A stretch of DNA of 35,550 nucleotides from Synergistaceae bacterium (lineage in GTDB: Bacteria; Synergistota; Synergistia; Synergistales; Aminobacteriaceae). Positions 3,307 through 18,481 of the stretch are shown one piece after another. Location of the stretch: assembly GCA_017448685.1 (NCBI GenBank), contig JAFSKY010000067.1:1-35550 (forward strand), read 5' to 3'. Positions within the stretch are counted from its first letter, which is position 1, and each line of letters opens with the position of its first letter. The notes under the pieces were generated by a model. The model was not told where the DNA came from. It saw only the letters and a list, made by a program, of their open reading frames with translations, and made no database searches. Position numbers and translations under genes: made by a program.

Positions 3307-5836
3307 TCGTTTCACCATCATCAAACGGAATAGGCGCGGTTGTGTCATCGCTTTCGTCATCCTCAGTGCGAATCACGCTGCAATCTGCTAATGAGTCGCC
3401 CTCATCGAGCCTGAGTATGATATTCCCCACAGAATGACGCTTCATTACGGTGATGCCTTCAACGGGAATCCGAATCATTCTGCCCCTTGAGGAAATCGCT
3501 AGAACTTCATCGGAGTCTTTAACGGCGAGGCTTCCTGAGAGTCTGCCAGTTCTCTCGGTAAGCTCCATGAGGCAAACTCCGCCCGTATTCCTGTGATGAG
3601 GCATGAATGAGGCGAACTCTACGCGTTTCCCTATACCCATTTCGCTTATGGCTAGGATTGTGCGCTTGTCATCAACTACATCACAGCTCAATACGCGGTC
3701 ATTCCCTTTGAGCGTTAAGGCTATGACTCCTCTTGCTGTGCGTTTCAGGGGGCGGAACTCTGTCTCAGGGACTCTCAATGCTAATCCGTTGCGCGTAACT
3801 ATGAGCAAATCATTCTTGCCTGTAGTGAGTCTAACCTGCGCTATTTCGTCCCCATCATCGAGCTTCATGATACGTTTTGCACGGTTGGTGTATTCGAGTT
3901 CGTCAAACGGGATTCGCTTGGCTATACCCTTCCTAGTGATGAAGAATGCGTAATTGAACCTCTTTATGCCATCCCCGGCAATGTTCACGATTCTTTCACC
4001 TTCAGCCGCGTTCAATGGCAGGTAACGTGATACGGGCTTCCCCTTGCCTGATTTCGTTTCAGGAATCTCATACCCTTTAAGGCACATGATACGGCCTTTG
4101 TTCGTGAAGAAATATATCTCCCTGTGAGTATGAGTTACGCAGAGCATCTCTATGCTGTCGTCTTCCTGAATGGTAGCTCCGCGCTTGCCTTTTCCGCCTG
4201 TAGCCTGAAGCCTGTATACCGTAAGAGGCTGACGCTTTATGAGGCCATCCTTCGAGAGGGTAATGATAATATCCTCCTCCGGGATTAAATCTTCGTCAGC
4301 TGACTCTTCAACGTCATCAACAATAACAGTGCGTCTTTCATCGCCGAATCTCCCGGCAAGGTCAACAAGCTCTGCACGTATGACTCCGTCAAGCGTGTGT
4401 TTGTCGCCTAATATCCCGTTGTATGTGTCAATGTCGGCAAGAAGTTTCTGCTGTTCCTCATCGAGTTTATTCCGCTCAAGCCCCGTCAACCTCTGAAGCC
4501 TCATGTCAAGTATTGCCTGTGCTTGTGCCTCAGAGAATCCCAATACGGATTGAAGGCTGGCTTTTGCGTCCGTTGCGCTGTCAGTTGAACGTATTGTGCG
4601 TATTACCTGCTCAATATGAGTCAGAGCTTTCTTGAGTCCCTCTATGATGTGTTCGCGTGATTGTGCCTGCTTGAGACGGTATTCTGTCCTGCGTCTGACA
4701 ACCTCGCGCCTGTAGTTGAGGAATATCGCGAGAAGCTGCTTTATGCCGAGTATTTCGGGGTGTTGGTCGACGAGTGCAAGATTTATCACGCCGAATGTTG
4801 ATTGAAGCGAGGTATGTCGATATAGCTGACGCATGATGAGTTCCGGGTCTGCATCGCGTGAAAGGTCAACAACTATTCTCAAGCCATCGCGGTCTGACTC
4901 GTCGCGCATTTCCGAAACGCCTTCTATTTCTTTATCCTGCACAGCCTGCACCATAGCTTCAAGCATTATGGTTTTGTTGACGCTGTAAGGTATCTCCGTG
5001 ATGACTATGCTTTGCTTGCCACGCTTTGACTCTTCAACGTGCATTTTCCCGCGTACAGTGATTTTCCCGCGACCTGTGGTATATGCCTCAAGGATTCCTG
5101 AACGCCCTAGAATTTCTCCTCCAGTCGGGAAATCTGGCCCGGGCATTATGCGCATTATGTCAGCAAGTTCAGCGTCTTCAGGCTCTATGTTGTTGTCGAT
5201 GAGCCAGCAGAATACGTTGACGACCTCGCGCAAATTGTGAGGTGGCATGTTCGTTGCCATACCTACAGCTATACCCGTTGAGCCGTTCACGAGCAAATTC
5301 GGCAATACTGAAGGGAGCGTTAGAGGTTCTTTGAGTGATTCGTCAAAGTTCTGTCCCCATTCTACTGTGTCTTCGTCGAGGTTCGCGAGCATGAGTTCTC
5401 CCGCACGGCTGAGTCTGGCTTCCGTGTAACGCATGGCTGCGGGGCTGTCGCCGTCAACTGATCCGAAGTTGCCCTGACCGTCAACGAGCGTGTAGCGCAA
5501 ATTCCAGTTCTGCGCAAGCCTCACCATAGTGTCATATATCGCCGTGTCGCCGTGAGGGTGGTATTTACCCATCGTTTCACCGACAATCCTGGCTGATTTC
5601 TTGTAGGCGGTGTTGTGCTTGAGTCCTAATTCCGACATAGCGTAAAGCACTCTGCGTTGAACAGGTTTGAGGCCGTCCCTCGCGTCTGGTAATGCCCTTC
5701 CTACAATGACGCTCATTGCGTAATTGAGGTAGCTCGTTTTTATTTCGCCAACAAGGGGAAGCGTCAGTATGCGCTCTTGGTTGTCTGATTGGGCTTCGGG
5801 GTTATTGGGTGTGGTATTTGTGATTTCGTCAGGCAT
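3287..5836 (-). CDS. gyrA: DNA gyrase subunit A
   Basis: This is the breakage-reunion subunit of DNA gyrase. The catalytic tyrosine is in [11 protein letters not shown] (about residue 137). The quinolone-determining region reads [10 protein letters not shown], with Thr at the E. coli Ser83 position and Asp at the Asp87 position. The C-terminal beta-pinwheel contains a GyrA-box-like segment [12 protein letters not shown], a weak match to the QRRGGKG consensus. The protein ends in an acidic tail. The frame is open as far as 6136, but the true start is the ATG at 5836 (MPDEITN), preceded by AGGAGG about 13 bases upstream. The usual GyrA core motif [21 protein letters not shown] begins near residue 38. 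It heads an operon with psd and pssA, an unusual partnership. ParC is less likely because of the GyrA-box-like motif. Confidence 0.97.
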
Positions 5837-5882
5837 AAAAAATTTTGAGCCTCCTGTCTGAATTGTATTGTCTGAACGTGTA

Positions 5883-5891
5883 ATTTTAGCA
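5883..5891 (-). promoter_or_regulatory. Extended -10 promoter for gyrA-psd-pssA
   Basis: On the minus strand, TGC followed by TAAAAT forms an extended -10 about 45 bases before the gyrA start. No clear -35 is visible. It lies back-to-back with the promoter of the divergent glycosyltransferase, whose hexamers are within 35 bases. Confidence 0.5.
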
Positions 5892-5895
5892 TGGT

Positions 5896-5923
5896 TTGAG
5901 GGGGATGATGATTTTGCTATAAT
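5896..5923 (+). promoter_or_regulatory. Promoter of the GT8 glycosyltransferase
   Basis: TTGAGG (5896-5901) and a perfect TATAAT (5918-5923) are separated by 16 bases, and TG plus one base precedes the -10, making an extended element. The predicted transcript start near 5930 leaves a very short leader before the GGAG at 5944-5949. Confidence 0.65.
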
Positions 5924-5957
5924 ACAATGCAACAATCCATGAAAGGAGAGATTGACA

Positions 5958-7052
5958 TTGACGGGTAAAGACAGTACAATCGCCCAACGCCCAACGCCCA
6001 ACGCCCAACGCCTAGACTCATGCCCAAAATCAGATGACACAATCCACGTAGCACTATGTGTATATGATCCATCAGGGATGTATTCACAGCACGCGGGAGT
6101 CGTAATGACCTCGATATTCGAGAACACACACAGCAAAGTTACCGTTCATATTCTCCATGATGACACACTCACAGATGACAACAGAAGGAAGTTCCTGCGT
6201 ACAGCGGAAAAATATTCACAGACAGTTGAATTTTACGATGTTACGGAATGCATGAAGAAATACGCGGGAAGCCTTGAGGCTTTGAGACAGGCAACAGGCC
6301 ATTATTCTATAGGCACTTTGTACAGGCTGTTTCTTCCTGACATGCTGGACGGAATCAAAAAAGTTATATGGCTAGACTGTGATGTGCTTGTCAGTCTGGA
6401 TATAAAAGAGCTGTGGGAAATTGACATGAAAGGAAAAACCTTCGCGGGCGTTTTGGACATGGTAGCTATGAAATATTACGATAGCTTTTACCGTAACAGA
6501 ATGGATGCCCTGCTCAAAGGAATTCCTCCTGATGAATATATCAATGCTGGAGTTATGGTTATAGACTTGGAACGTATACGGGAAAAAGTCAGCTTCTCGG
6601 ATGTCGCAATGAAATGGATTATTGATATGGGTAATCTCGCCCCTTGTACCGACCAAGACGCAGTAAATTCAATCTTTGCGGGTGATATATGCCTGTTGGA
6701 CACCAAGTTTAACCAGCAAAATATTTCCTCTGACACTCAAGGCTGTATGCTTCACATGTACAGCGGTAAGCCTTGGGCCTCCATAAGGGGCTTCCCGTCT
6801 GAGCGACTCTACTGGAAACTATACCTGCGTTCCGCATGGGGGGAAAATGCTCAGCCTGAAGACATCATAGACAGCATAATTGATGCAGCCGAAAAACAGC
6901 GCAAACGTTCTTCCCCAGCCCGCAAACCAGAAAATACCTTACGCAGGTTCGCAAAGAAACTTGTTTACGACATACTCCCGATGAGGTCAGTGAAATATAT
7001 CATCATACATACAGTTCACCATATGAAGCGGAAATTATCACAGTGCAGATGA
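5958..7052 (+). CDS. GT8-family glycosyltransferase with repeat in 5' coding region
   Basis: This is a retaining glycosyltransferase of family GT8 (LPS galactosyl/glucosyltransferase type), expected to add a hexose to a surface glycan at the inner membrane. Diagnostic features are HVALCVYD near the N terminus, the metal-binding DxD in [21 protein letters not shown], and FNQQN. The C terminus is basic and hydrophobic, suggesting peripheral membrane binding. I chose TTG at 5958 because AGGAG sits 9 bases upstream; TTG at 5952 is too close. No start codon exists between the heptanucleotide tract and the conserved core, so translation must begin before the tract. With four copies the frame is open, meaning an ON state. 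The gene ends 15 bases inside the convergent folP. Confidence 0.93.
5981..6012. repeat. Heptanucleotide repeat (CGCCCAA)4 inside a glycosyltransferase gene
   Basis: Four perfect tandem copies of CGCCCAA occupy 5981-6008, followed by CGCC. They fall in codons 8-18 of the GT8 gene. Gain or loss of one unit shifts the frame by one base, as in slipped-strand contingency loci. On the minus strand the same tract reads GGG four times separated by CGTT, a sequence compatible with a G-quadruplex. Confidence 0.97.
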
Positions 7053-13761: not shown

Positions 13762-15249
13762 ATGAACGATCTGATTCGCATAAACGAGTCCGATTCTGTA
13801 GCTGTAGCTTTGCGTCCAATAAGCGCGGGCGAAATCATCACAGTTACGGGCGCGGGCGTTGATATGAAAGTCTGCGAAGACATCCCCATGGGCCACAAAA
13901 TAGCCCTTCACGACATCAAGAAAGGGAGTCCCATCATAAAATACGGCTTCCCAATAGGTTCAGCACTCTCAGACATTCCAGAAGGCTATCACGTTCACAC
14001 GCAGAACACTCACACGCTTTTGGCTGGCGCACACGATTACGAGTACCATCCGACTCACCCGTCGATCACATCAAACACTCCCGAAATATTCAGCGGATAT
14101 TCCCGCAAAAACGGCAGGGCAGGTGTACGCAATGAGTTATGGATCATTCCTACTGTAGGTTGCGTGAATGATATTGCCGTGTCCCTTGAGCGTGAAGCAA
14201 GAAGCCTCATCGGAGGAAGCGTTGAGAATGTCAGGGCGTTCACACATCCTTACGGCTGTTCACAGATGGCAGATGACCAAGAGAATACGCGCAAAGTTCT
14301 CGCCGATATTGCAACACATCCCAATGCAGGCGGAGTACTCATGCTCGGACTTGGCTGTGAGAATAGCGGAATTGACACGATAAAGCCCTACATGGGTGAA
14401 TTTGACACGGAACGCATTAGATTCCTCATATCACAGGACGCGGAGAACGAACACGAAGAAGGCATGAAGATTCTCCGTGAGCTTGCTGAACTCATGAGCC
14501 ATGACAAGCGCGAACCCTGCCCAACGTCAAAGCTGATTGTCGGCCTAAAATGCGGTGGCAGTGATGGACTCTCAGGGATAACGGCGAATCCCACAATCGG
14601 AGGCTTCTCTGACTTGCTCATTTCGCAGGGAGGCAGCACGATTTTGACGGAAGTCCCTGAAATGTTTGGTGCTGAGACTATTCTCATGAACAGGTGCAAG
14701 GATGAAGCGACCTACAACAAAACGGTGAACCTCATCAACGGCTTCAAGAACTATTACGCGTCATTTGGGCTTCCAGTATTCGAGAACCCCTCACCCGGCA
14801 ACAAAGCAGGCGGAATAACTACCCTTGAGGACAAAGCGTTAGGTTGCACACAGAAAAGCGGAACAGCTCCCGTGAATGACGTTCTCGCATATTCGGAGAA
14901 AGTTACGGTGCAGGGGCTTAACCTTCTTTCAGCACCCGGCAATGACCTTGTAGCCTCGACAGCTCTTGCGGCGGCAGGGGCTCAGATTGTGCTGTTCTCA
15001 ACGGGGCGCGGGACTCCTTTTGGCTGTCCTGTTCCTACGGTGAAGATTTCGAGCAACTCTAATCTTGCCTCACACAAAGCCAACTGGATAGACTTCAACG
15101 CAGGGACTCTCGTTGATGGAGGAACAATCCCGGAGAAGGCTCGTGAGCTGTTTGACTTCGTGTTGAGAGTCGCAAGTGGTGAAAAGACTCGCAACGAGAT
15201 TAACGGCTTTCAGGGTATGGCGATATTCAAGACTGGCGCGACATTGTAA
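13762..15249 (+). CDS. uxaA: Altronate dehydratase
   Basis: This enzyme dehydrates D-altronate to 2-keto-3-deoxygluconate in galacturonate catabolism. An N-terminal SAF domain (about residues 8-80: SVAVALRPISAGEII) is fused to the catalytic UxaA domain, with GYSRKNGRAGVRNELWIIPTVGC, THPYGCSQM, LGLGCENSGID, GLKCGGSDGLSG and STGRGTPFGCPVPTVKIS. Conserved cysteines suggest metal dependence. The length of 495 residues is normal for the single-chain form. The ATG at 13762 has AGGGGGAA about 10 bases upstream. It heads a plus-strand cluster with uxaC and an iron alcohol dehydrogenase. D-galactarate and D-arabinonate dehydratases are related, but the neighbouring uxaC favours altronate. Confidence 0.93.
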   Translation: MNDLIRINESDSVAVALRPISAGEIITVTGAGVDMKVCEDIPMGHKIALHDIKKGSPIIKYGFPIGSALSDIPEGYHVHTQNTHTLLAGAHDYEYHPTHPSITSNTPEIFSGYSRKNGRAGVRNELWIIPTVGCVNDIAVSLEREARSLIGGSVENVRAFTHPYGCSQMADDQENTRKVLADIATHPNAGGVLMLGLGCENSGIDTIKPYMGEFDTERIRFLISQDAENEHEEGMKILRELAELMSHDKREPCPTSKLIVGLKCGGSDGLSGITANPTIGGFSDLLISQGGSTILTEVPEMFGAETILMNRCKDEATYNKTVNLINGFKNYYASFGLPVFENPSPGNKAGGITTLEDKALGCTQKSGTAPVNDVLAYSEKVTVQGLNLLSAPGNDLVASTALAAAGAQIVLFSTGRGTPFGCPVPTVKISSNSNLASHKANWIDFNAGTLVDGGTIPEKARELFDFVLRVASGEKTRNEINGFQGMAIFKTGATL

Positions 15250-15250
15250 T

Positions 15251-15397
15251 ATGGTTGCTTTAACATTCACGCTTGAAGATTGCGATGCTTCTACAGATCC
15301 GTTTTACAGCCCGGCAAATATGGAACGCCTGAAGAAATCTGTCGCCCAGCTTAATGCAGGAAAAGGCACGGAACATAAACTCATAGAGGCGGATTAA
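15251..15397 (+). pseudogene. RelB/DinJ antitoxin relic, internally deleted but open frame
   Basis: The 48-codon frame starts MVALTFTLED and continues DPFYSPANMERLKKSV and GKGTEHKLIEAD. The end matches the toxin-binding C terminus of RelB/DinJ antitoxins that pair with Txe/YoeB. The usual start (a beta strand such as ATVTITLDD) is joined almost directly to this tail; the ribbon-helix-helix core of about 40 residues is missing. The ATG lies one base after the uxaA stop. The stop overlaps an ATG (TAATG), as in intact antitoxin-toxin pairs. The frame is uninterrupted, so a short peptide could still be made, although the Shine-Dalgarno is weak. Confidence 0.75.
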
Positions 15398-15405
15398 TGC
15401 GCAAA
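15296..15405 (+). repeat. Antitoxin-relic direct repeat, copy 1 of 2
   Basis: This 110-base block aligns without gaps to 17084-17193, with about 18 mismatches counted by eye (roughly 84% identity). It spans the antitoxin C-terminal coding region and the toxin start. Most differences are in third codon positions or give similar residues. Confidence 0.9.
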
Positions 15406-15521
15406 ATACACCCGGCATACTTTCGAATATGCGCACAGGCAACAAACACCGCATTGTGTTCAGGCTTCAAGACGGAGCTATAGAGATTGCACAGTGCGGT
15501 ACACACTACAGGGATAAATAA
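15397..15521 (+). pseudogene. Txe/YoeB toxin relic (first copy)
   Basis: The ATG overlapping the antitoxin stop begins MRK, the usual Txe/YoeB start, but this frame soon diverges and stops at 15480. A second frame, ending at 15521, encodes TGNKHRIVFRLQDGA and then EIAQCGTHYRDK, which is the unmistakable C-terminal third of a Txe/YoeB mRNA endonuclease, including the catalytic His-Tyr end. The middle of the gene has been deleted with a frame change, so no active toxin is possible. It lies directly upstream of uxaC. Confidence 0.8.
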
Positions 15522-15542
15522 CATTAAGGAGGATTTATCGCA

Positions 15543-16946
15543 ATGTCATTTTTGGACAAAGATTTTCTTCTCAACACAGACACAGCAAAAACACTCTTCC
15601 ACGAAACAGCCTCACATTGCCCCATCATCGATTACCACTGCCACATAAGCCCCAAAGAGATCTGGGAGGATCTCCACTATGACAGCATCACACAAGTCTG
15701 GCTCGGCGGAGATCACTACAAGTGGCGGCTGATGAGGTGCGCAGGGGTCAACGAGAGATTCATCACGGGGGATGCTGACCCTCACGACAAATTCATGAAG
15801 TGGGCTGAGGTTGTTGGACGCGCAATAGGGAATCCCCTCTACCACTGGAGCCACCTGGAATTACGCAGGTATTTCGGCTATCAGGGAGTCTTGAACGCAA
15901 AGACAGCCGAAGAAGTCTGGAAGCTCTGCAACGATACGCTTCACCGCCCGGAATTTGGTGTGCGTGGCCTAATCGGAATGAGCAACGTTGAGACAATCTG
16001 CACGACTGATGACCCAATCGACTCGCTTGAATGGCACGCAAAAATCGCAAGTGATGACAGCTTCAAGACTCGCGTATTGCCCGCATGGAGACCCGACAAG
16101 GCCATGAACATTGAGAAGCCGACATGGCCGGAATATCTTGCGCAACTGTCAGAAGTCTCAGGTGTGAAGATTGCAACATTCGCTGACCTCAAAGCAGCAC
16201 TCTCAAAGCGTATGGACTTCTTTGCGTCAAGAGGTTGCAAACTTAGCGACCATGCTTTGAACACCGTCAAATGCGCTCTAGCCTCAGAGCAGGAACTCGA
16301 AGCTATATTTGCCTCAAGGATGAACGGAAATATCCCGGATGAATCAGCTCAGGACAAATTCAAGACGGCGTTTATGATGTTTGTTGCGCATGAATACACC
16401 GTAAGAGGATGGGTAATGCAGATACATTACGGTTGCAGGAGGGACAACAACATACCGATGTTTGAGCGTCTTGGCCCTGACACAGGATATGACTGCATCA
16501 ACAACACAGCTTCAAGCGCAGAGACGGCAGAATTTCTCGGCGAGCTTCAGCGCACAGGCAGCCTCCCCAAGACAATACTCTACAGCCTTGACGGTAACGA
16601 CAACTCAGCAATTGACACCGTATGCGGATGCTTCCAGGATGATGACATTCCCGGAGTGTCGAAGATTCAGCACGGTTCAGCGTGGTGGTTCCAAGATCAT
16701 TTTGACGGCATGACCGCGCATATGAGATCACTTGCGAGCTTGGGCTATCTTCCTGGCTTCATCGGAATGCTGACTGACAGTAGGAGCTTCCTCAGCTACC
16801 CTCGCCATGAGTATTTCAGGCGCATACTGTGCAGGCTCATGGGGGAATGGGTACGTGATGGATTCTTCCCTGATGATATGGAGACATTGAGAGGGATTGT
16901 AAGCGGCATAAGCTACGGGAACGCGAAAAAGTACTTTAACTTTTAG
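15543..16946 (+). CDS. uxaC: Glucuronate/galacturonate (hexuronate) isomerase
   Basis: This enzyme interconverts D-glucuronate with D-fructuronate and D-galacturonate with D-tagaturonate, the first cytosolic step of hexuronate use. It is an amidohydrolase-fold TIM barrel of 467 residues, the normal size. Family blocks include CPIIDYHCHISPKEI near residue 30 with metal-binding histidines, CTTDDPIDSLEWH, RPDKAMNIEK, MQIHYGCRRDNN and MLTDSRSFLSYPRHEYFRRI. The ATG at 15543 follows a very good AAGGAGGA about 10 bases upstream. It sits between two toxin-antitoxin relics and feeds uxaA through tagaturonate and altronate. Confidence 0.97.
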   Translation: MSFLDKDFLLNTDTAKTLFHETASHCPIIDYHCHISPKEIWEDLHYDSITQVWLGGDHYKWRLMRCAGVNERFITGDADPHDKFMKWAEVVGRAIGNPLYHWSHLELRRYFGYQGVLNAKTAEEVWKLCNDTLHRPEFGVRGLIGMSNVETICTTDDPIDSLEWHAKIASDDSFKTRVLPAWRPDKAMNIEKPTWPEYLAQLSEVSGVKIATFADLKAALSKRMDFFASRGCKLSDHALNTVKCALASEQELEAIFASRMNGNIPDESAQDKFKTAFMMFVAHEYTVRGWVMQIHYGCRRDNNIPMFERLGPDTGYDCINNTASSAETAEFLGELQRTGSLPKTILYSLDGNDNSAIDTVCGCFQDDDIPGVSKIQHGSAWWFQDHFDGMTAHMRSLASLGYLPGFIGMLTDSRSFLSYPRHEYFRRILCRLMGEWVRDGFFPDDMETLRGIVSGISYGNAKKYFNF

Positions 16947-16960
16947 GGGGATTTGACCTT

Positions 16961-17000
16961 ATGCCGGGCGGGGATATGGATTAAGATTTCTGTCCGGCAT
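16961..17000. repeat. Inverted repeat after uxaC
   Basis: ATGCCGG (16961-16967) and CCGGCAT (16994-17000) form a 7 bp inverted repeat around a 26-base loop. There is no T tract, so it is not a typical terminator. It could be an mRNA hairpin or the remnant edge of an inserted module. Confidence 0.35.
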
Positions 17001-17032
17001 GATGAGATACTGCGCATGAAGGCGGTAAAGCA

Positions 17033-17185
17033 ATGGCGACTGTAACAATTACACTTGATGACAGCATGAAAGATGCCCTTGAAGATCCGTTTTACAGCAC
17101 GGCAAACATGGAACGTTTGAACAAATCCATAACCCAGCTAAACGCCAGAAAAGGCACGGAGCATGAGCTTATAGAGGCGGAATAA
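17033..17185 (+). pseudogene. RelB/DinJ antitoxin relic, second copy, open frame
   Basis: The 50-codon frame starts MATVTITLDDSMKDALE and goes straight to DPFYSTANMERL, QLNARKGTEHELIEAE. The first part is the canonical RelB N-terminal beta strand, the second the canonical toxin-binding tail; the helices of the DNA-binding domain between them are missing. As in copy 1, the junction keeps the frame and the stop overlaps an ATG (TAATG). A weak GGCGGT precedes the ATG. A short peptide with only the toxin-binding part could be produced. Confidence 0.75.
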
Positions 17186-17193
17186 TGCGCAAA
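17084..17193 (+). repeat. Antitoxin-relic direct repeat, copy 2 of 2
   Basis: This is the partner of 15296-15405, gap-free over 110 bases. Both copies lie in gaps between genes of the hexuronate cluster and in the same orientation. Confidence 0.9.
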
Positions 17194-17283
17194 CCTGAAA
17201 GATATAGACCGCAACGGCTATAATTGCGAGGGACATCCAGAACCTTTAAGCGTAAATGTGGTTCGCATTACAGGGACAAATGA
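17185..17283 (+). pseudogene. Txe/YoeB toxin relic (second copy)
   Basis: Three toxin pieces survive: MRK at the overlapping ATG, then in another frame LKDIDRNGYNCEGHPEPLS (the family's RNGY and GKPEPL region), then KRKCGSHYRDK ending at the TGA at 17281-17283. The first frame stops after 12 codons. At least two deletions separate the pieces. Copy 1 retains a stretch that copy 2 has lost, so the decay differs between the two. Confidence 0.8.
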
Positions 17284-17314: not shown

Positions 17315-18481
17315 ATGCAAAATTTCACGTGGCACAACCCCACAGAATTAATTTTCGGAAAAGACACAGTAAAGGAACTCGCGCCAAGACTCAAAGCTGA
17401 CGGCATTAAAGGAGTCCTTCTCGTTTTCGGCGGCAAAGGAACATTCAAGAGTGGAGCATATGCACAGGCTACGGAGATGCTCAACTCTGCTGGAATATCA
17501 TTCTCAGAGGTCAACGATGTGAAATCGAATCCCCTCGTGGGAAAAGTCCGCGAAGGTATCCAGCGCGTTAAGGCGGGCGGAATTGACGCAATAATGCCTG
17601 TTGGAGGCGGGAGCGTTTTCGACACGGCAAAGGCAATCGCGGCAGGTTCGCTATATTCCGGCGATGTGTGGGACTTCTACAGCGGGAAGGCCAAAATGAC
17701 GAAAGCCCTCCCGATTTACGGAATACTTACGGCTTCAGCATCATCAAGCGAGGTCAATAACATATCCGTAATCACCAACCCTGAGACCGAAGACAAAATC
17801 TCAATGAGTGGCCCGGCGATTTACCCGCGAGTCTCTGTGATTGACCCGTCATTTCAGTTCACGTTGCCGGAAAAGCAGACGATTTACGGCGGAGTCGACA
17901 TAATAGCGCACATACTTGAACGCGTCCTTGATGGGAACGAGGAATGCGAGCTTGTTGACAGCCAGAGCTACGCACTCATACGCACGATGATGAACGTTAT
18001 CCCTGAGCTTATCGAGAACCCAAAAGATTATGACCTTCGCGCAGATTACGCATTGGCCGGTGCAATGGCTCATTCTGGATTTCTGTCAATAGGGCGCAAT
18101 CCTAGGGGTGATTTCTCCTCCCATAAACTTGGGCATTCAATCAGCCTTCTTTTTGGGGCAGCTCATGGGGCTACGTTGTCGGTGATTTTCCCGGCGTGGT
18201 CGCGTTATCTGTATGAGGATAATCCTGTACCTTTTGCGAGGCTTGGCGAGGAAGTGTTTGACATTTTCGACGGGTCAGACGAGGAAAAAGCTCTTGAGGC
18301 TATCGAGGCTCTTGAAGATTTCTTCAGGGACATAAAAGCCCCCACAACTTTGCGTGAATTAGGCGTGAAGGAAAATGATATAGAGCGTCTTGCGGATAAT
18401 GCGTGTAAGTTGCTTCCTTATGGCGTATTGAAGGAGCTTGAGCCGGAAGACGTACTAGAGATCTACAAGCTGGCGTATTAG
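17315..18481 (+). CDS. Iron-containing alcohol dehydrogenase
   Basis: This is an NAD(P)-dependent group III (iron-containing) alcohol dehydrogenase of the YqhD/BDH type, 388 residues. The nucleotide-binding GGGSVFDTAKA and metal ligands are visible: Asp and His in GGVDIIAHILE, His in SSHKLGHSISL, and His in GAAHGA. The frame extends upstream to 17258, but that part is toxin relic; the ATG at 17315 has AAGGTGA eight bases upstream and begins MQNFTWHNPTE, the usual family start. Substrate cannot be read from sequence. Position after uxaC makes a role as the missing tagaturonate or fructuronate reductase an attractive but unproven idea. A strong terminator follows. Confidence 0.93.
   Translation: MQNFTWHNPTELIFGKDTVKELAPRLKADGIKGVLLVFGGKGTFKSGAYAQATEMLNSAGISFSEVNDVKSNPLVGKVREGIQRVKAGGIDAIMPVGGGSVFDTAKAIAAGSLYSGDVWDFYSGKAKMTKALPIYGILTASASSSEVNNISVITNPETEDKISMSGPAIYPRVSVIDPSFQFTLPEKQTIYGGVDIIAHILERVLDGNEECELVDSQSYALIRTMMNVIPELIENPKDYDLRADYALAGAMAHSGFLSIGRNPRGDFSSHKLGHSISLLFGAAHGATLSVIFPAWSRYLYEDNPVPFARLGEEVFDIFDGSDEEKALEAIEALEDFFRDIKAPTTLRELGVKENDIERLADNACKLLPYGVLKELEPEDVLEIYKLAY

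Follow-up and report, generated by a model that had tools for sequence, protein, structure and literature searches.

The N-terminal fold of the antitoxin YefM, partner of the toxin YoeB, is other than the RelB/ribbon-helix-helix (RHH) fold. Solo antitoxins are reported to be common (PMC2701414), and chromosomal CcdA of Erwinia is reported to neutralise plasmid CcdB (PMC7354431). Both the solitary antitoxin and the concept of anti-addiction have thus been published. A literature search of titles and abstract openings returned no RHH-less RelB tail and no toxin-antitoxin (TA) pair in a uronate operon, which is no proof of absence in print. We describe here two relics of a RelB-Txe pair that occupy both gaps of a uronate operon in a gut bacterium and keep short open antitoxin frames.

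The window, meaning the whole stretch of 35,550 nucleotides that was analysed, is contig C42 of a 2.44-Mb genome with a completeness of 89.7%. Judged by uxaC, its closest relatives with a name are metagenome-derived Synergistaceae/Synergistales genomes of goat and red deer origin. The genes uxaA and uxaC and an iron-type alcohol dehydrogenase gene (adh) lie on a common strand, and each of the two gaps between them holds a relB-txe relic, exactly where the first-pass annotation had placed them (Table 1).

Table 1. Features of the operon in the window and Sel1-repeat genes in the uxaA-uxaC gap of two related loci
Feature	Locus	Coordinates	Strand	Details
uxaA, altronate dehydratase, upstream operon gene	Window	13762..15249	+	Pfam GD_AH_C 1e-98, GD_AH_second 3e-43, SAF 5e-7
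Antitoxin relic 1	Window	15251..15397	+	48 aa; N-terminal strand joined to toxin-binding tail
txe relic 1	Window	15397..15521	+	Start codons, one large deletion, C-terminal third
uxaC, uronate isomerase	Window	15543..16946	+	Pfam UxaC 3e-195
Antitoxin relic 2	Window	17033..17185	+	50 aa; 17 N-terminal codons and toxin-binding tail
txe relic 2	Window	17185..17283	+	Start, middle piece LKDIDRNGYNCEGHPEPLS, last residues, deletions between
adh, iron-containing alcohol dehydrogenase, downstream operon gene	Window	17315..18481	+	Pfam Fe-ADH 5.8e-40, ADH_Fe_C 1.4e-32
Sel1-repeat gene in uxaA-uxaC gap	L009 (G031)	5340-5972		
Sel1-repeat gene in uxaA-uxaC gap	L010	2498-5083		861 aa, 19 scored repeats

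The relics were said to share a gap-free block of 110 bases at about 84% identity; the block was found at 111 nt and 84% (E = 7.7e-28), and the gap-free direct repeat between the relics measures 122 nt at 81% identity. In its own genome the block occurs at E ≤ 0.001 in two places only, relics 1 and 2, and a dispersed genomic repeat was rejected on this count. The relic peptide, searched in the same genome at E ≤ 10, has no places beyond the two relics. The proposed search of this genome for other frames with the tail and for an intact cognate pair thus ended with the two relics and no partner: in this genome, 89.7% complete, C227 carries a Txe paired with a different antitoxin, C191 carries another RelB-type pair, and the search turned up no intact partner that has a relic-type tail.

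The in-frame loss of the RHH core, with frames of about 50 residues left open, was borne out. The ATG of the relic 1 antitoxin lies one base past the uxaA stop. Neither relic frame has a Pfam RelB/RHH match, and the full-length antitoxin of the related genome G002 matches PF04221 over residues 2 to 54. The NCBIfam YefM model aligns with both relic tails over its final 28 positions (56 to 83), at E values of 6.8e-5 and 0.0067, far under the model's curated cut-off. At the protein level the N-terminal strand scores 55 in relic 2, where 15 shuffles reached 38 at most, and 32 in relic 1, where the null (maximum 34 in 15 shuffles) is not beaten; at the DNA level the relic 1 strand has 24/33 identities with that of G002, and 0/20,000 shuffles were as good. 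The toxins are broken differently, as the annotation had it, with the C-terminal third left in relic 1 and the LKDIDRNGYNCEGHPEPLS piece and last residues in relic 2. Relic 1 has a frame shift near its deletion junction and matches PF06769 over positions 48 to 80 with 18 bits, where the cut-off is 27; the same search reported no relic 2 toxin. In both relics, as in the full-length relatives, the antitoxin tail stop overlaps the txe start, so that of a type II RelB-Txe pair they retain the tail upstream of and overlapping txe, and lack the RHH domain and the full-length toxin.

Full-length pairs were sought in relatives with the relic 2 peptide, which found 72 places in 54 of 149 related genomes; since the query is the tail, this survey cannot pick up relics that have lost theirs. 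Of the 11 top-ranking places other than the window, eight lie at the uxaA-uxaC-adh operon. The adh neighbourhood was placed in 41 genomes (the window and 40 others, being the 43 genus genomes except for G018 and G033), some on contigs that end near adh (in G012 the adh start is missing), where absences carry little weight. Matches to relB or txe are present in 10 of the 41: the window, six genomes with full-length relB and txe (G003, G002, G016, G037, G032, and G017), G025, and relics in G022 and G030. The order uxaA-relB-txe-uxaC-adh is found in G016, G037, and G032, with about 30 nt between uxaA and relB in G037 and 1.0 to 1.3 kb in G032 and G016. G017 has the order relB-txe-uxaC-adh, with no uxaA match in 3.5 kb upstream. 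G003 and G002 have full-length relB-txe directly before adh, and txe is followed by what is left of the uxaC 3′ end; neither genome has a uxaC match at E ≤ 1e-50, and there is no uxaA match in 4.6 kb (G003) or 3.3 kb (G002) before relB. G025 has uxaA, an RHH-less 60-aa antitoxin (L105), a full-length txe frame, a second antitoxin-like copy, and adh. The N terminus of the 60-aa antitoxin is basic, and the second copy is 80% identical (L201, G025:C5 73500-81500). One relative was found among viral contigs and three among phages.

Decay is graded among these genomes, from full-length homologues at the same operon site through the relics of G022 and G030 to bare 3′ ends in G040 and G013, as expected of decay relics. 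Among 24 genomes tested for txe 3′ ends, 0/2,000 shuffles were as good in G040 and 1/2,000 in G013, and G029 is marginal at 25/2,000; G013 keeps the relB 3′ end too (0/500 shuffles). In a separate observation on the uxaC-adh gap, an approximately 395-base stretch of L010 (7399-7794) is internally repetitive by eye.

The bases after txe match the uxaC 3′ end of G031 at 23/24 positions in G003 and 19/24 in G002, with 0/300 shuffles as good. The same test gave 0/300 in G030, G040, G009, and G028, 2 to 4/300 in G005, G029, and G001, and 2 and 5/300 in G039 and G042; the remaining 12 of 23 genomes were unremarkable. The first uxaC 18-mer came from G003/G030 sequence and is 18/18 there by construction, and the test was repeated with uxaC ends taken from ten uxaC-bearing genomes. 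G003, G002, G030, G040, G009, G028, G005, G029, and G001 form one adh clade with a support of 99, and G039 and G042 lie outside it. The uxaA 3′ end was recovered before relB in G022 (0/2,000 shuffles) and G003 (3/2,000); before relB of G002 it is not significant, with 992/2,000 shuffles as good. Three further remnants were considered and rejected: the uxaA 3′ end before relic 2 (891/2,000 shuffles as good), a uxaC 3′ remnant behind relic 2, seen by eye, that would have linked this relic to the G003 clade, which lacks uxaC (1,058 and 461/2,000), and a uxaC 3′ remnant in G013 (not above the null).

Since a uxaC 3′ remnant follows txe in G003 and G002, uxaC appears to have been deleted from an ancestral uxaA-TA-uxaC-adh arrangement. 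The simplest history suggested by these sequences would be that the ancestral operon read uxaA-relB-txe-uxaC-adh and that piecemeal losses removed uxaC, uxaA, or the pair. Two facts run counter to a simple vertical history: G031, the nearest relative of the window and its adh sister, has no relB-txe match at the operon, and no pair lies between uxaC and adh in the relatives examined. In a tail tree of 10 sequences, G037, G016, G017, and G032 stand apart from the rest (support 94). The full-length pair persists in G003 (L197) and G002 (L198) although uxaC, and in G003 apparently uxaA, was deleted around it. An 18-nt piece of the uxaC 3′ end, AGCTATCATAACGCAAAA, starts 43 to 47 nt upstream of adh with 16 to 18 of 18 positions kept in G003, G002, G030, G040, G001, and G009; it might be part of the adh promoter (TATCAT-like).

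The relics of the window are thus probably the product of recent decay of a pair long resident in this operon in the genus, composed of a RelB/DinJ-type RHH antitoxin with a YefM-like tail and a Txe/YoeB toxin. The first-pass annotation had offered decaying insertions as one reading; decay agrees with the full-length pairs and intermediates in operons of the same genus, and the word insertions needs revision, as the pair looks like an old resident of the operon. Each toxin would have been broken by separate deletions. The antitoxin core would have been lost before, after, or in parallel with the toxin, by a deletion between short codon-matched repeats that kept the frame open. For the second copy, a TA-uxaC unit could have been duplicated, or a uxaC-less relative could have supplied its TA-adh allele by recombination.

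The way in which the frames remained open was read from the alignment by eye, which is the basis of all deletion edges and repeats given here. Relic 2 has 35 codons fewer than the 85-aa antitoxin of G002, and its loss runs from a Glu/Asp-type codon pair near codon 17 to the Glu-Asp codons before DPFYS. The loss in relic 1 amounts to 37 codons, and its edges differ slightly from those in relic 2. In G022 the core loss lies between GATGA-like and GAAGA-like bases, and in G030 the loss lies between two copies of CCGTTTTA (PFY...PFY), and uxaA is fused to relB. Because both copies of an edge repeat are translated alike and in one frame, a slip from one to the other would remove codons without shifting the frame, and we propose slippage on this footing as the probable deletion mechanism.

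Loss of the core is not confined to the window. Tail loci were classified at 72 places, namely 71 of the 72 survey places (G011:C1 was left out) and the viral locus L118. No RHH core match was found in 17 of the 72, of which 15 have no N-terminal match and two, L120 and relic 2, have the strand only; four further loci keep a partial core. Partial cores are in frame with the tail in L095, L123, L130, and L249. Against a null of 15 shuffles per locus, a lone N-terminal strand rises above the null in 3 of the 21 loci that lack the core or keep only part of it (L120, L131, and relic 2), always in the tail frame; the strand of L121 is also above the null in the tail frame, with a null made unreliable by a run of N. 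No strand is above the null in a non-tail frame among these 21 loci. This in-frame pattern fits selection, and it also fits a codon-matched repeat mechanism. In three relatives (L101, L105, and L129) a short RHH-less antitoxin lies beside a stop-free full-length Txe frame, and in L248 a longer, different N-terminal part joined to the tail does so; the Txe of L117 has an internal stop. Core-less tails without a toxin match are found at L091, L119, L120, L124, L125, L126, L128, and L131. As a separate observation, L128 (G010:C4), L126 (G008:C4), and L248 (G074:C87) carry a similar tail on another N-terminal part, alike by eye, and a Pfam search of this part of L128 and L248 gave no confident match.

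The first-pass annotation had suggested that the open frames are anti-addiction peptides, and had looked to synonymous versus nonsynonymous change between the copies for evidence. The relic tails differ from each other at 6/0/12 sites by codon position, with a dN/dS of about 0.1. As a control, the dead toxin pieces beside the tails were compared (19 to 33 codons for each tail or toxin piece), with the full-length relatives G003, G002, G037, and G017 as pN/pS references. The pN/pS of the tail is 0.16 to 0.25 in relic 1 and 0.20 to 0.34 in relic 2, and that of the dead toxin is 0.17 to 0.27 (relic 1 end, 23 codons past the junction) and 0.20 to 0.37 (relic 2 middle, 19 codons); the tails of the full-length pairs among themselves give 0.16 to 0.33. 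The low tail values overlap those of the dead toxin, frames that stay open are therefore no sign of function, and selection on the mini frames, as the relic-relic dN/dS had seemed to indicate, does not stand out against this control. The overlap implies that most of the constraint predates the decay and that the relics are young, and in young relics open tails are expected without selection. The 48- and 50-residue frames are therefore most likely passive leftovers.

One comparison points the other way. The pN of the relic 1 toxin to G003 and G002 is 0.13 to 0.17, versus 0.05 between the G003 and G002 toxins, and that of its tail is 0.10 to 0.12, versus 0.20 between the G003 and G002 tails. The pN/pS control omits ten relic 1 toxin codons next to the junction, which are aligned across a one-base shift; with these included, the toxin dN is 0.24 to 0.38. 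The dead toxin of G030 shows no such rise in pN (0.05). On these small samples, the relic 1 toxin may be changing faster than its own tail.

That comparison bears on the possibility that the 48- and 50-aa frames are expressed mini-antitoxins which neutralise related plasmid-borne Txe without DNA-binding autoregulation. Resemblance of the relic tails to the C-terminal end of YefM would suit such a role, as would the raised pN in the relic 1 toxin and not in its tail, the short antitoxins beside full-length Txe at L101, L105, and L129 (L105 being in the same operon, in G025), and the recurrence of core-less tails without a toxin at eight loci (L091 to L131). Rumen bacteria would also contain suitable Txe targets, as a related full-length pair on plasmid pNP21 (tail 70% identical) shows at the sequence level. 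Relic 1 has no Shine-Dalgarno sequence (−1.5 kcal/mol); relic 2 has an SD-like AAGGCGG before its frame (−8.1), compared with −8.4 to −12.0 for full-length relB, −12.1 for the G022 mini frame, and −4.1 for adh of the window, a value by which a weak SD is no bar to translation. Against expressed mini-antitoxins stand the overlap of tail and dead-toxin pN/pS, the missing SD of relic 1, an own genome without an intact partner bearing a relic-type tail, and the unusual changes in the G030 relic tail itself. We regard this role as unlikely, and the anti-addiction proposal is not supported.

Another improbable account is that capture by the operon made autoregulation needless, so that a core-less antitoxin first existed beside a live toxin through one shared core deletion, was duplicated, and was left when the toxins later died. 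The G025 arrangement of a 60-aa RHH-less antitoxin and full-length txe with a second copy between uxaA and adh would be such a stage, the two relics lost nearly the same stretch (the kept parts differ by six nt), and the codon-position pattern and dN/dS of their tails agree with it. However, the relic 1 frame is shorter by two codons, and the last ones before DPFYS may equally be 3′ flank (EAPE), which would make it a different deletion, and the tail tree neither places relics 1 and 2 nor joins them with support. Every match to the G025 antitoxin outside G025 in the 149 genomes starts at residue 9 or later, so it is not a conserved type there. A broader version, in which operon capture frees the antitoxin of its DNA-binding half, tail-only antitoxins arise repeatedly, and the window peptides neutralise incoming gut plasmid Txe, is quite improbable; in it a tail-only antitoxin would begin next to a live toxin, for which G025 may be an example, and end up alone. 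Retention of the relics as spacers, a role raised in the first-pass annotation, or as RNA elements is very unlikely even though they fill both intergenic gaps, because the uxaC-adh gap is 10 to 14 nt in 7 of 9 relatives with the gap read (11 nt in G031) and no spacer is needed, the uxaA-uxaC gap varies and holds Sel1-repeat genes in the nearest relatives (L009 and L010), and a scan of the window gave no Rfam match at the gathering threshold, on which count a known RNA family in the gaps was rejected.

The feature is real. Most likely it shows an operon site long occupied by a toxin-antitoxin pair whose ordinary decay has reached a late stage. The genus provides a natural series for one TA module at one operon site, which starts with the full-length pair and ends with bare 3′ ends. 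G003 and G002 belong to it; in both, the pair seems to have survived the loss of uxaC, and in G003 that of uxaA as well. The series makes the order of TA decay directly testable, including whether loss of the DNA-binding half precedes that of the toxin. It also carries a warning: low dN/dS in a mini-antitoxin frame that has stayed open is not evidence for function unless the neighbouring dead toxin serves as a control. The points of lasting value are the graded series and the core-less antitoxins that adjoin full-length toxins.

Among known systems, the pair WP_207649310.1/WP_073390270.1 on the Butyrivibrio fibrisolvens rumen plasmid pNP21 is like the relics in having the antitoxin first, an overlapping txe, and a toxin of the Txe/YoeB family, and its tail is 70% identical to the relic-type tail over 33 residues; the window copies differ in having no RHH core or intact toxin and in lying in a chromosomal catabolic operon. 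YefM-YoeB is approached by the relic tails, which match the end of the YefM model under its cut-off, and by the full-length G003 toxin, which matches solved YoeB at an E value of 1.2e-20, whereas the full-length relatives have an N-terminal domain of the RelB/RHH type, not the YefM fold. Like orphan and anti-addiction antitoxins, the window frames are antitoxin-derived and stand without a working toxin; unlike them, they keep only the strand and tail, and their activity is putative at most.
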